The notes under the pieces: model-generated
What the model saw: only the letters and a program-made list of their open reading frames with translations
Told to the model about the DNA's origin: nothing
Databases searched by the model: none
Position numbers and translations under genes: made by a program
Assembly (NCBI RefSeq): GCF_000764495.1
Contig: NZ_JRLB01000033.1
Coordinates: 1-34,174, forward strand
DNA: 34,174 nucleotides
Reading direction: 5' to 3'
Source: Nitrincola sp. A-D6
GTDB lineage: Bacteria; Pseudomonadota; Gammaproteobacteria; Pseudomonadales; Balneatricaceae
In this document: one piece after another, positions 11,018-31,830 of the stretch
Layout: every line of letters starts with the position of its first letter
Numbering within the stretch: the stretch's first letter is position 1

Positions 11018-11567
11018 TGAAATTACTAAAGACGCTGAAGTGCGTATGGCCAAAAGTGTTGAATCCCTGGTCGATAACTTCAAGAAAATTCGTACCGGTC
11101 GCGCCCACCCCAGTATTCTGGATAGTGTGCAGGTCTCTTATTATGGCTCTATGGTGCCGCTCTCCCAGGTTGCCAATATTAACGTTGAAGATTCAAGAAT
11201 GCTGACGTTAATTCCTTGGGAAAAGAAGATGGTGCCGGAAATTGAAAAGGCCATCATGAAGTCAGATTTGGGTATTAACCCCAATACAGCTGGCGATGTG
11301 ATTCGTGTGCCTATGCCAGCGCTGACTGAAGAAACCCGCAAAGGTTATATCAAGCAGGCGCGCGCAGAATCTGAAGCGGCTAAAGTGGCTATACGTAATA
11401 TCCGTCGTGACGCAAACAGTAGCATCAAAGACCTGTTGAAAGAAAAAGCCATCAGTGAAGATGAAGAGCGCCGTGGTGAAGATACGGTTCAGAAGCTGAC
11501 CGATAGATTCGTATCGGAAGTGGACGCATTGCTGACTCAGAAAGAGTCAGATCTTATGGAAATTTAA
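11010..11567 (+). CDS. frr: Ribosome recycling factor
   Basis: The product has 185 residues, the same as E. coli. The ATG at 11010, just after GCAGGAGA, gives [20 protein letters not shown], matching the family start (DAEVRM); an upstream in-frame ATG at 10959 falls within pyrH and is rejected. Motifs include [42 protein letters not shown] and [14 protein letters not shown]. With EF-G it splits post-termination ribosomes. The start overlaps the pyrH stop, so translation is coupled. Confidence 0.97.
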
Positions 11568-11582
11568 TGTATCTGCCGGAGC

Positions 11583-11600
11583 GCGGGGCGTAAGTCCCGC
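11583..11600 (+). other. GNRA-loop hairpin just before uppS
   Basis: GCGGGGC-GTAA-GTCCCGC, a 7-bp stem with one G-T pair and a GTAA loop, lies between the frr stop and the uppS ATG at 11610. No Shine-Dalgarno sequence is visible between the hairpin and the ATG. It may influence uppS translation; this is inference. Confidence 0.5.
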
Positions 11601-11609
11601 CACTCGCTT

Positions 11610-12356
11610 ATGTCCGCATCTGTAAATCAAGTAATCACTGGAACTGTACCGCGCCATGTTGCCATTATTATGGATGGTAACAATCGCTGGGCAAAGCAGC
11701 GCCATCTGCCGGGCGTTGCTGGGCATAAGGCAGGCGTCAGCAGTGTCCGTCAAACTATTGAGGGCTGTGTTGAGCAAGGCGTGGAAGTGCTCACGCTGTT
11801 TGCATTCAGTAGTGAGAACTGGAAACGTCCGGAAGGAGAGGTTCGTGGGCTAATGGACCTGTTTATGCTGTCTCTGGATCGTGAAGTAAAAAAGTTGCAT
11901 CGTCATGGTATTCGCTTGAACATAATTGGCGATCGGCAGCGTTTTTCTGCCAGATTACAGCAAAAAATGGCAGCGGCAGAAGCTCTGACTGCAGGCAATG
12001 AGGGGTTGGTATTAAATATTGCTGCAAATTATGGTGGGCGTTGGGATATAGTGCAGGCGGCCCGTCAGGTGGCGCAATCCTGCCTGGAAGGTGAGTTACA
12101 GCTATCTGATCTGGATGAGTCCATGTTTGATGGCTTTACTACGTTGGCGGGCTTGCCAGAACCTGATCTTTGTATTCGCACAGGTGGTGAGCAGCGTATC
12201 AGTAATTTCTTAATCTGGCAGATGGCGTATACAGAGCTGTATTTTTGCGACTGTTACTGGCCGGATTTTGGAAAAGTAGAATTGGGCAAGGCAATAGAGA
12301 GTTTTGCCAGTCGTCAGCGTCGCTTTGGAAAAACATCGGACCAGGTAGGGGCTTAA
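11610..12356 (+). CDS. uppS: Undecaprenyl diphosphate synthase
   Basis: The product has 248 residues. It condenses farnesyl-PP with eight isopentenyl-PP units to make C55-PP, the carrier for peptidoglycan and LPS sugars. The motif HVAIIMDGNNRWAKQR carries catalytic Asp22. VLTLFAFSSENWKRP, NIAANYGGRWDI and LPEPDLCIRTGGEQRISNFL (substrate and magnesium binding) are all present. It follows frr directly. In E. coli dxr lies between the two, but not here. The start has no visible ribosome binding site, and the only in-frame codons upstream run straight back to the frr stop. Confidence 0.96.
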   Translation: MSASVNQVITGTVPRHVAIIMDGNNRWAKQRHLPGVAGHKAGVSSVRQTIEGCVEQGVEVLTLFAFSSENWKRPEGEVRGLMDLFMLSLDREVKKLHRHGIRLNIIGDRQRFSARLQQKMAAAEALTAGNEGLVLNIAANYGGRWDIVQAARQVAQSCLEGELQLSDLDESMFDGFTTLAGLPEPDLCIRTGGEQRISNFLIWQMAYTELYFCDCYWPDFGKVELGKAIESFASRQRRFGKTSDQVGA

Positions 12357-12359
12357 ATA

Positions 12360-29048: not shown

Positions 29049-29083
29049 GGTTTTGTTACCCTTTTAAGTGGAGAGTTAAAGTT

Positions 29084-30379
29084 ATGGCAAAGATTGCTGA
29101 TATCAAAGCGCGTGAGGTTCTGGATTCGCGTGGTAACCCTACGGTTGAGGCCGATGTGATCCTGGAATCCGGTATTGTCGGCAGTGCATGTGCTCCTTCA
29201 GGTGCCTCTACCGGTTCCCGTGAGGCCTTGGAATTGCGTGATGGCGATAAATCACGTTACCTGGGCAAAGGCGTTTTGAAAGCAGTTGCTGCTGTAAATA
29301 CTACTATCCGTCAAGCGCTGTTGGGTATGGATGTCACCGATCAGCGTGCACTGGATGGTAAAATGCTGGCACTTGATGGTACCGATAATAAGTCTGTATT
29401 GGGTGCCAATGCGATTCTGGCGGTGTCCCTGGCCGCGGCTAAAGCGGCGGCAACAGCCAAAGGCATGCCACTCTATGCCCATATTGCCGAGATTAATGGT
29501 ACGCCGGGTCAGTACTCTATGCCCTTGCCGATGATGAATATCCTCAACGGCGGTGAACATGCCGATAACAACGTGGATATTCAGGAATTTATGGTGCAGC
29601 CGGTTAACTTTACCAGCTTCAGCGAAGGGCTGCGATGTGGTGTCGAGATTTTCCATGCGCTTAAGGCAGTTCTGAAAGCTCGCGGTATGAACACAGCTGT
29701 GGGTGATGAAGGTGGCTTCGCGCCTAATCTGGGCTCAAATGAAGAAGCCCTGGTGGTGATCCGTGAAGCGGTAGAGAAAGCCGGTTACGAACTAGGTAAA
29801 GATGTGACCCTGGCACTGGATTGTGCGGCCTCTGAATTTTACAAAGCCGGTCAGTATGATCTGGCCGGTGAAGGTCAGGTATTTGATGCGGCCGGTTTTG
29901 CTGATTATCTGAAAATGCTGTCAGAAAAATACCCAATAGTCTCTATCGAAGATGGTATGGATGAGTCTGACTGGGCTGGCTGGGCTGACCTGACACGCAA
30001 GATTGGTGATAAGGTTCAATTGGTCGGTGATGATCTGTTTGTAACCAATACAGAAATTCTGCAGGAAGGTATCGAAAAAGGTATCGCCAACTCCATCCTG
30101 ATCAAGTTTAACCAGATAGGTTCACTGACCGAAACCCTGGATGCGATTCGTATGGCCAAAGAAGCCGGTTACACAGTGGTTATATCTCACCGCTCTGGTG
30201 AAACGGAAGATACCACGATTGCAGATTTGGCTGTTGGAACAGCGGCTGGACAGATCAAGACCGGTTCTCTGTGCCGCTCTGATCGTGTAGCCAAGTACAA
30301 CCGTTTGCTGCGTATTGAGGCTGAGCTGGGTGATAAGGCAGTGTATAACGGCTTGTCTGAAATCAAAGGTCAAGCCTGA
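29084..30379 (+). CDS. eno: Enolase
   Basis: The product has 431 residues. It interconverts 2-phosphoglycerate and phosphoenolpyruvate in glycolysis; in E. coli it is also a part of the RNA degradosome. Motifs are the start [35 protein letters not shown], the proton-acid region [10 protein letters not shown], magnesium ligands in [11 protein letters not shown] and VGDDLFVTN, and the catalytic Lys in [31 protein letters not shown] follows. A perfect hairpin straddles the stop (30373-30395). Confidence 0.98.
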
Positions 30380-30395
30380 TACTTGCTATCAGGCT
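30373..30395 (+). other. 9-bp hairpin across the eno stop codon
   Basis: AGCCTGATA (30373-30381), loop CTTGC, TATCAGGCT (30387-30395), with the eno TGA inside the first arm. No T tract follows, so it is not a classical terminator. It may shield the eno message from 3' decay or partly limit reading into ftsB. Confidence 0.55.
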
Positions 30396-30437
30396 GTCTG
30401 AAGGGGGTGTATCCCTCTGTTTAGGGCAGGTAACCTT

Positions 30438-30737
30438 GTGTTTCGTCTGTTAATTATTATTTTATTGTTGCTGTTGGCTGGTCTGCAGTACCGGCTCTGG
30501 CTCGGAGATCCTAATCTGCGTCAGGTTTGGCAGCTGGAGCAGGCGATTCTGGAACAGCGACGTGAAAATCAGCTGTTGGCTGAGCGTAATCAGCGACTCG
30601 AAGCTGAGGTAGCTGACCTGAAACAAGGATTGAAAGCCATTGAAGAACGGGCGCGCAGTGAAATGGGGCTGATTCAGGAGGGTGAAACTTTCTATCGCTT
30701 GATCGAGCCAGATACACGTCGGAGGCTACAGCCTTGA
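30438..30737 (+). CDS. ftsB: Cell division protein FtsB
   Basis: The product has 99 residues. A short N-terminal cytoplasmic start and one transmembrane helix (about 2-20: FRLLIIILLLLLAGLQYRLW) lead to a periplasmic coiled coil (about 30-72: QAILEQRRENQLLAERNQRL and so on), then EERARSEMGLIQEGETFYRL, typical of FtsB. With FtsL and FtsQ it activates FtsWI at the septum. The start is GTG at 30438 after GGCAGG. Its stop overlaps the TTG start of truD, so the ispD and ispF genes that often follow ftsB are absent. Confidence 0.95.
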   Translation: MFRLLIIILLLLLAGLQYRLWLGDPNLRQVWQLEQAILEQRRENQLLAERNQRLEAEVADLKQGLKAIEERARSEMGLIQEGETFYRLIEPDTRRRLQP

Positions 30738-31830
30738 GTCTGTTAGATCTGTTACTGACTCGGTCAGAGTCTTATTTACTCGGGGCGCCGACAGGCTCAG
30801 CGGTTATCAGGCGATTTGCCGAAGACTTTTGTGTTGAAGAGGAACTCGGCTTTGAGCCGGATGGGGCTGGAGAGCATCAGTTTCTGTTGATTCGCAAGAC
30901 TGGCGAAAATACCGACTGGGTTGCCCAGCAACTGGCCCGTTTTACCCAAAGTCATCCGCGTGATATTGGTTATGCCGGTAAAAAAGACCGCCATGCCGTC
31001 ACTGATCAGTGGTTCAGTGTACGCCAGCCTTTGGGGACACAGTTGGATTGGTCTGCTTTCGAGACTGATTCGATTCAGGTGCTCAGGCAGGCCCGTCATG
31101 GTCGCAAACTGAAAACGGGTGTGCTTAAAGGTAATCGTTTCAGTCTGCGCCTGCGTGAAGTTAGCCACCCGGATGAGTTACAGCAGCGCTTTAATCAGTT
31201 GAAAATCTCAGGTGTGCCTAATTATTTTGGCGAGCAGCGATTTGGACATAATTATGGCAATATCAGTAAAGGCGAATTACTGATTGCAGGGCAGTTACGG
31301 GAGCACAATCGCCAGAAGCGCGGTCTTTATATTTCGGCCTTGCGTTCAGCTTTATATAACCAGGTAGTGTCGGCACGTATTCAACAGGGTATATGGAACA
31401 CAGTTGCCCCTGGTGATGTATTGATGCTTAATGCCAGTCAGAGCTGTTTTGTCTGCAATGAAGTGGATGCCGACTGCCAGTTGCGCCTGCAGCAGGGTGA
31501 GCTGCACCTGACCGCGCCTCTCTGGGGCAAGGTGGCTTGATGACTCGCGAGACCATGGCTGAGTTTGAACAGTCGGTACTGTCTCCCTGGCAAGACTGGT
31601 GTCTTGGTTTGGAAGCGCTGGGTCTGAATCAGGAGCGTCGTGCCGTCAGGGTGCTGTTACAGGCACCCCGGCTGCAGCAGGAATCAGAAACGACCTGGCA
31701 GGTCAGTTTTGGCTTGCCTGCTGGTGCTTTTGCCACCAGCTTATTGCGTGAACTATGCCAGCTAGATAATGAAAAAGCGGTATTAGGCGGCTCAACTGAC
31801 GTACATGAGCCGTATCAAAGTGCTAATTAA
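30734..31830 (+). CDS. truD: tRNA pseudouridine(13) synthase, frame broken once (probable sequencing error)
   Basis: The restored product is about 365 residues (E. coli 349). It makes pseudouridine 13 in tRNA-Glu. The catalytic Asp85 lies in IGYAGKKDRHAVTDQW. LKGNRFSLRLREVSHPDELQ and GVPNYFGEQRFGH follow. The frame breaks at 31530-31536, leaving a stop at 31540; one added G gives GKGGLMTRETMAEFEQ and continues to the C-terminal motif FGLPAGAFATSLLRELCQL. The 4-base overlap of stop and new start resembles a two-gene split, but the TruD insertion and core domains are one chain in all relatives I know, so I treat this as one gene. The start is TTG. Confidence 0.85.

Follow-up and report, generated by a model that had tools for sequence, protein, structure and literature searches.

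Where does isopentenyl diphosphate (isopentenyl-PP) come from in a bacterium that retains uppS, whose product consumes it, and lacks dxr, ispD, and ispF at their usual places? The question is raised by a contig of Nitrincola sp. A-D6 (NZ_JRLB01000033.1, 34,174 nucleotides, C45 in our numbering), which was analyzed over its whole length and is called the window below. It belongs to an assembly of 3.79 Mb in 117 contigs that is 96.5% complete with 7% contamination. The initial annotation of the window offered two explanations: either these genes of the methylerythritol phosphate (MEP) pathway had moved elsewhere, or the pathway had been replaced by the mevalonate pathway. Our analysis indicates that the replacement very probably took place in the whole family of this bacterium (code f1, which includes Nitrincola lacisaponensis, Pokkaliibacter, Motiliproteus, and the window's genome), and that one MEP gene, dxs, was kept in a trimmed form, most likely for vitamin synthesis. 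Membership of the named genera in this family, presumably the Nitrincolaceae, follows from the dxs positions of G156, G296, and G301, which are identical to those in the named genomes.

Closed slots and missing MEP genes

The window genes frr, uppS, cdsA, rseP, pyrG, eno, ftsB, and truD all lie on the plus strand. The genes frr (10959..11567; TIGR00496, 222 bits, above cut-off), which borders the dxr slot of enterobacteria on the left, uppS (11610..12356; TIGR00055, 305 bits vs a cut-off of 109.6), cdsA (12360..13169; NF008635, 223 bits, E 3.7e-66, under the model's curated cut-off of 385), and rseP (13203..14555; TIGR00054, 407 bits, above cut-off) are separated by 42, 3, and 33 bases, respectively. 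Further downstream, ftsB (30438..30737; NF002058, 121.7 bits vs 101) and truD (30734..31540; TIGR00094, 174.7 bits vs 172.2) overlap by 4 bases, a spacing of -4. These distances agree exactly with the initial annotation, and its gene identities are upheld by the NCBIfam models.

The gene order was compared with five MEP-pathway genomes (G001, G003, G005, G006, and G010), which represent five other families of the same order and were chosen from 13 genomes outside the family in which ispF had been located. Of 24 queries, the genes of the window spanning map to pcm, 22-24 were matched per relative and their order was identical in all five; surE and skp were unmatched in three. In every relative cdsA and rseP enclose dxr (open reading frame, ORF, of 386-404 amino acids), and ftsB and truD enclose ispD and ispF. 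Measured as the distance between tblastn matches, the dxr slot spans 1,188-1,258 bases in the relatives vs 33 bases in the window (13170..13202), and the ispD-ispF slot spans 1,179-1,333 bases vs the 4-base overlap of the ftsB stop and truD start (30734..30737). Since the relatives hold genes in these slots, where the window has 33 and -4 bases, the dxr and ispD-ispF vacancies are two clean losses from retained neighborhoods. In agreement with this, the dxr, ispD, and ispF proteins of the five relatives matched the window by tblastn with a best E value of only 0.038, and the same queries matched their counterparts in the G001 and G006 regions at E < 1e-47. The absence of the three genes from their usual places, with all neighbors kept, is thus confirmed.

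A search of the whole genome, as the initial annotation had proposed, recovered no dxr, ispD, ispE, ispF, or ispH. Profile searches for dxr (TIGR00243), ispF, and ispH gave no match at all in the assembly, and ispD gave none above cut-off (best 49.5 bits vs 181.3). Weak ispD matches of this kind were set aside, as they are present in 38 of 38 genomes and 14 of 14 controls; a second ispD-like match in G004 (175.6 bits) was also left out of the counts. No ispE was seen in this genome with PF00288, whose eight matches comprise six GHMP kinase places of the mevalonate genes, located on two contigs, and two noise matches at 12.5 bits. Among the MEP genes searched (dxs, dxr, ispD, ispE, ispF, and ispH), the genome therefore retains dxs only, so the proposed loss of the pathway stands for five genes and fails for dxs.

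The same pattern extends to the family. No dxr above cut-off was found in 99 family genomes, where the search yielded only two 19-bit matches (G300 and G364), vs 258 of 293 genomes in a sample of the order (12 of which belong to the family) and 9 of 14 controls. The ispD, ispF, ispH, and dxs profiles were searched in 38 genomes, 25 from the family and 13 others. Both ispF and ispD (the latter above cut-off) were found in 0/25 family and 13/13 other genomes; similarly, ispH was matched in 0/25 vs 13/13, with 12 of these above cut-off. By contrast, dxs was matched in all 25 family genomes, in 24 of them above cut-off.

A further slot of the window, which is not that of an isoprenoid gene, is also closed. 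Between pyrG (27420..29048; collinear in the five relatives at 70-77% identity) and eno (29084..30379; TIGR01060, 670 bits, above cut-off), the window has 35 bases (29049..29083), whereas four of the five relatives have 877-946 bases with an ORF of 279-285 amino acids; the G001 ORF passes kdsA models, and the other three resemble kdsA. Four other window ORFs, presumably tsf, pyrH, dnaE, and tilS (9350-10107, 10264-10946, 21730-24982, and 25992-27367, respectively; the names are assigned by our reading only), are split across frames and resemble those of an uncorrected long-read assembly.

The mevalonate operon and its spread

The genome contains mvaS (521.7 bits vs a cut-off of 360.35) on two contigs, C48 and C74, which carry the same mevalonate locus (99.92% identity over 19.4 kb). 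The gene order on C74 is argG (a name we presume), a TPR gene, mvaA, fni, mvaS, GHMP kinase A, GHMP kinase B, sensor-kinase and regulator genes (named by reading), mvaD, and a DNA polymerase-like gene. The 3-hydroxy-3-methylglutaryl-CoA (HMG-CoA) reductase scores 275.7 bits with PF00368 (cut-off 27) and 269.6 with TIGR00533, below the 441.8 required; its nearest PDB entries are 6hr7, 2q1l, and 1dq8. As we take these entries and TIGR00533 to be markers of class I reductases, the enzyme is probably class I-like. The fni product is a type 2 isopentenyl-PP isomerase (TIGR02151, 357.8 bits vs 281.3). The mvaD gene is frameshifted on both contigs and matched as two fragments (166.8 and 140.4 bits); its intact counterpart in N. 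lacisaponensis scores 303.5 bits with TIGR01240 (cut-off 171.35). In the latter species kinase B passes the mevalonate kinase cut-off (170.4 bits vs 163.05) and kinase A remains below it (120.4). The best matches of both kinases in PDB sequence searches are mevalonate kinases, and the predicted structure of kinase A, the only one subjected to a fold search, is also nearest to mevalonate kinases. At the L025 locus (11167-13090) two adjoining GHMP kinases are both mevalonate kinase-like.

With mvaS, HMG-CoA reductase, fni, two GHMP kinases, and mvaD all present, the suggestion that mevalonate had replaced the MEP pathway is borne out. The list of mevalonate genes to be expected was recovered in large part, namely mvaS, mvaA, mevalonate kinase (in the N. 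lacisaponensis copy), mvaD, and an isomerase of type 2; for phosphomevalonate kinase, the two GHMP kinases are candidates.

The interval between kinase B and mvaD varies. In the window's genome sensor-kinase and regulator genes that are absent in N. lacisaponensis fill about 4 kb of it (L013, 9275-13253, on C74), and about 5 kb separate the two genes in Marinobacterium lutimaris and M. mangrovicola (L034 and L035).

Replacement of this kind has precedents in γ-proteobacteria, and the likening to Legionella and Coxiella made in the initial annotation holds. Coxiella burnetii and Legionella pneumophila are described as having mevalonate genes and no non-mevalonate genes (PMC9803151), and all Legionella analyzed in another study lack PmvK, most of them lacking HmgS as well (PMC13001223). 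The family resembles them in having mevalonate genes in place of MEP genes, but differs in that six operon genes, including mvaS and two GHMP kinases, stand together and dxs is kept. Some Streptococcus and Enterococcus (PMC13001223) similarly have mevalonate genes beside MEP remnants, whereas here dxs alone is left of the MEP genes tested. A phosphomevalonate kinase may go unrecognized because it is labeled as a mevalonate kinase, and this could be relevant to the absence of the enzyme reported for Legionella.

We then considered the distribution of mvaS. It is present above cut-off in 97 of the 99 family genomes, and in 98 at E 1e-30. In the order sample 13 of 293 genomes have mvaS above cut-off, namely the 12 family genomes and G225. 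Any match at E 0.001 is far more common, occurring in 195 of the 293 genomes of this sample and in 11 of 14 controls. Below the cut-off stand G245 (340 bits), G100 (227), G209 and G288 (133), G059, G092, and G120 (97-99), and G017 (67), the other matches listed reaching 60 bits or less; the weak ones are probably FabH-like ketosynthases. In G245 (L216, 7554-8570) and G100 (L217, 7404-8636) an mvaS homolog is found without other mevalonate genes nearby; mvaS alone is no marker of the mevalonate pathway.

The closest named relatives of the mvaS product are those of N. lacisaponensis (90% identity), an Oceanospirillales metagenome-assembled genome (MAG; 86%), and N. schmidtii (85%), followed by other Nitrincola, Marinobacterium, Neptuniibacter, Pontibacterium, Neptunomonas, Amphritea, and Motiliproteus; the alignment holds the best 80 of at least 576 matches, and records very near the window are possibly omitted from it. 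All six operon genes keep their order in 68 of the 80 named loci, in 65 of these within 6.5 kb; the remaining 12 are cut by contig ends or are Verrucomicrobia-like records in which some of the genes were not found. On the mvaS tree Nitrincola (with the window's genome), Amphritea plus Aliamphritea, Pontibacterium, and Motiliproteus each form a group, the Marinobacterium sequences do not all fall together, and long branches lead to several outside genomes, including G225, G245, G100, and G209. The tree fits one old gain followed by vertical descent.

Two groups of genomes deserve separate mention. In G299 the operon (L219, 3651-9992) contains stops and broken frames, which may reflect either sequencing error or decay; this genome has no dxr, and its dxs is open. 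Six genomes coded f39 (G039, G076, G105, G133, G157, and G179) have no dxr among the matches listed and no mvaS above cut-off; dxs above cut-off is absent in the three of them tested (G039, G076, and G105), and dxr is present in G220, also f39.

Retention of dxs and loss of a DXS loop

In the window's genome dxs resides on another contig than the window. Its frame is open in all but one of the 25 family genomes, the exception being the split copy of the window's genome. In all 20 family genomes with a dxs locus read, ispA lies within 200 bases of dxs and on the same strand. In 11 of 12 MEP relatives it is likewise found on that strand, at a distance of up to 420 bases; ribA usually occupies the other side. 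The corresponding queries from G343, which represents the window's genus, pass farnesyl diphosphate synthase and RibA models. Because the ispA neighbor is common to the family and the MEP relatives, dxs is at its ancestral place. The DXS protein of G343 scores 726.5 bits with the curated DXS model (cut-off 465.95), in two stretches that flank a missing loop.

1-Deoxy-D-xylulose 5-phosphate (DXP), the product of DXS, is a precursor of both pyridoxal phosphate, via PdxJ, and the thiamine thiazole, via ThiG. DXP can also be diverted to make thiamin and pyridoxal (PMC13001223, Table 1). This offers a natural reason for the retention of dxs, whose sole remaining purpose is most likely the supply of vitamins B6 and B1. 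An alternative, that dxs is a decaying remnant or serves some other purpose, would agree with six mvaS-bearing genomes that have no dxs above cut-off (no match in L090, L096, L099, and L102; 74-79 bits in L098 and L103). We consider it unlikely, given the open frames, the high score of the G343 protein, and the conservation in the DXS alignment of motifs that we take to be catalytic.

The missing loop comprises about 40 residues. The DXS profile match breaks between positions 185-195 and 223-234 in all 25 family genomes and is unbroken there in all 13 others, 12 of which match positions 3-615, or nearly so, in one stretch; the thirteenth, G011, has a dxs cut by contig ends that still spans the loop region in one stretch. 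Fifty DXS rows were aligned, two of them from a single genome; the split copy of the window's genome was left out. In this alignment the segment from NDNDMSIS through GPxDGH measures 79-80 residues in 14 rows, those of 12 MEP relatives, G100, and G245, and 41-67 residues, with several lengths, in the other 36. Comparison with known structures gave the same picture. The G343 protein aligns with PDB entry 8a29 in a single stretch (785.7 bits) and with the full-length chain 2o1s, which we take to be E. coli DXS, in two stretches that skip chain residues 206-238; the MEP relative G001 shows the reverse.

Judging by the run of glycines in the alignment, 8a29 is probably the loop-deleted construct of Pseudomonas aeruginosa DXS. 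Replacement of residues 206-245 by six glycines in the P. aeruginosa enzyme gave comparable kinetics (PMC10504544). Similarly, replacement of residues 190-234 in Mycobacterium tuberculosis DXS raised the melting temperature from 45.4 to 52.7 degrees and lessened degradation, with kinetics of the same magnitude (PMC9068908). Since these engineered enzymes, made by crystallographers, remain active, the deletion in the family, which differs from them in being natural and filled by short variable linkers, should leave catalysis working.

Loop length and pathway were compared outside the family as well. G225 (f6) has the same six-gene operon, no dxr among the matches listed, and a span of 50 residues. 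G209 (f16) likewise has no dxr among the matches listed and a span of 67; its mevalonate cluster is a different one (mvaS 31%, kinase-like genes 28%, and mvaD pieces 30 and 44% identical to ours). G245 (f6) and G100 (f35) have dxr, the full loop, and a lone mvaS homolog within the 16-17 kb read. Short loops also occur in mvaS-bearing Kistimonas, three Parendozoicomonas, several MAGs, and others, whose dxr status lies outside this comparison. Loop loss is thus suggestive of convergence with loss of the MEP pathway, on the strength of two or three events.

DXS is feedback-inhibited by isopentenyl-PP (IDP) and dimethylallyl diphosphate (DMADP) in MEP bacteria (PMC13001223). A tentative and rather doubtful reading is that the loop ties DXS to isoprenoid supply, through this feedback or through enzyme turnover. 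IDP derived from mevalonate would then throttle the synthesis of vitamins B1 and B6, and the loop would for this reason have been removed repeatedly after the mevalonate takeover, in the family, G225, and G209. On balance we lean slightly towards neutral drift, by which a disordered loop shrinks under relaxed selection without regulatory meaning. Published work describes a loop with poor conservation that catalysis does not require (PMC10504544 and PMC9068908), and family DXS proteins are more divergent, scoring 688-775 bits with the family model vs 822-901 for 12 uncut others. The constant length and clear shared letters of the 14 full-loop rows, as opposed to the spread among the other 36, speak against drift; nevertheless, gradual neutral loss of a loop that the enzyme can do without is no less likely than trimming driven by misregulation.

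Weighing the alternatives and implications

Taken by itself, the window would be compatible with mere relocation of the MEP genes within the genome, and dxs does persist on another contig. However, none of dxr, ispF, and ispH has a match in the genome, ispD has none above cut-off, and dxr is above cut-off in none of the 99 family genomes but in 258 of the 293 genomes of the order sample, which makes relocation very improbable and disposes of the first explanation in the initial annotation. Equally improbable is an artefact, in which the MEP genes would lie on missing contigs and the mevalonate contigs would be contamination. The fragmentation, incompleteness, and contamination of the assembly, its two near-identical mevalonate contigs, and the frameshifts in several window genes could be cited for it. 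Against this, mvaS reaches E 1e-30 or better in every one of the 88 family genomes with completeness of 90% or more and contamination of 5% or less, dxr passes the cut-off in no family genome, the mvaS product groups with that of other Nitrincola, and both slots are closed inside a single contig. A third possibility is that the MEP pathway continues with a non-homologous DXR. Bacteria with DXR-II (DRL; class A of PMC3847144) can be without dxr yet keep the rest of the pathway, and they resemble the family in the missing dxr; the retained dxs of the family would also suit this possibility. We regard this as next to impossible, since DXR-II would lead nowhere with ispD, ispF, and ispH also absent; the rejection rests on those absences and not on a search for DXR-II. 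Relocation, assembly loss, contamination, and DXR-II were all rejected on these grounds.

Under replacement by the mevalonate pathway, the ancestor of the family (Nitrincola, Pokkaliibacter, and Motiliproteus) would have gained an operon mvaA-fni-mvaS-GHMP kinase A-GHMP kinase B-mvaD, which would have taken over the synthesis of isopentenyl-PP. Loss of MEP genes that serve isoprenoids alone, namely of dxr, ispD, ispF, and ispH, absent across the family, and of ispE, searched in the window's genome only, would have followed, the dxr and ispD-ispF slots closing cleanly between their retained neighbors. The dxs gene would have stayed beside ispA to supply vitamins B6 and B1 via DXP, and its product would have shed the surface loop that the examined MEP-using relatives retain.

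Several observations weigh against this scenario or parts of it. In the window's genome both GHMP kinases score below the mevalonate kinase cut-off (kinase B 146.2 bits), and neither passes a phosphomevalonate kinase model, both looking like mevalonate kinases. Both dxs and mvaD are among the genes split by frameshifts in this contaminated assembly of 117 contigs. One family genome, G356 (950 contigs), has no mvaS match, and mvaS of G299 contains stops. As to the loop, only two changes of its state are needed on a DXS tree from which the loop columns were left out. The number rises to three if the f6 rows are constrained to group together, a constraint that the approximately unbiased test does not reject (p-AU 0.52). 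Finally, a model of short DXS proteins, NF008968 (PRK12315; 582 positions), already exists, and thus this clade is not alone in having a loopless DXS. G343 DXS matches it across the loop unbroken, in one stretch, but below its cut-off (481.7 bits vs 510). Its members are presumably Gram-positive.

Mevalonate users make up 12.03% of 4,249 species surveyed, and Table S1 of that survey may already list these genera among them (PMC13001223). The titles and abstract openings of the literature matches listed contain no description of mevalonate use in Nitrincola and its kin, or of a loopless DXS tied to mevalonate, which is weak evidence that none exists.

The case very probably represents a family-wide swap of an essential pathway, in which the closed slots can be read at base level in the window. 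Because only dxs remains of the MEP genes tested, the IspF product methylerythritol cyclodiphosphate, which has been proposed as an oxidative-stress signal (PMC13001223), cannot be made this way here. As the target DXR is gone, resistance to fosmidomycin is predicted, and sensitivity to statins is possible if the reductase is of class I, as its best matches suggest (both drugs as in PMC13001223, Table 1). The family also provides a natural experiment on DXS, the rate-limiting enzyme of the MEP pathway and a drug target: the roles of the loop and of feedback control can be tested by comparing DXS enzymes released from the pathway with those that still belong to it. If the loop does tie DXS to isoprenoid supply, its length would be a sequence marker of DXS that still feeds isoprenoids.

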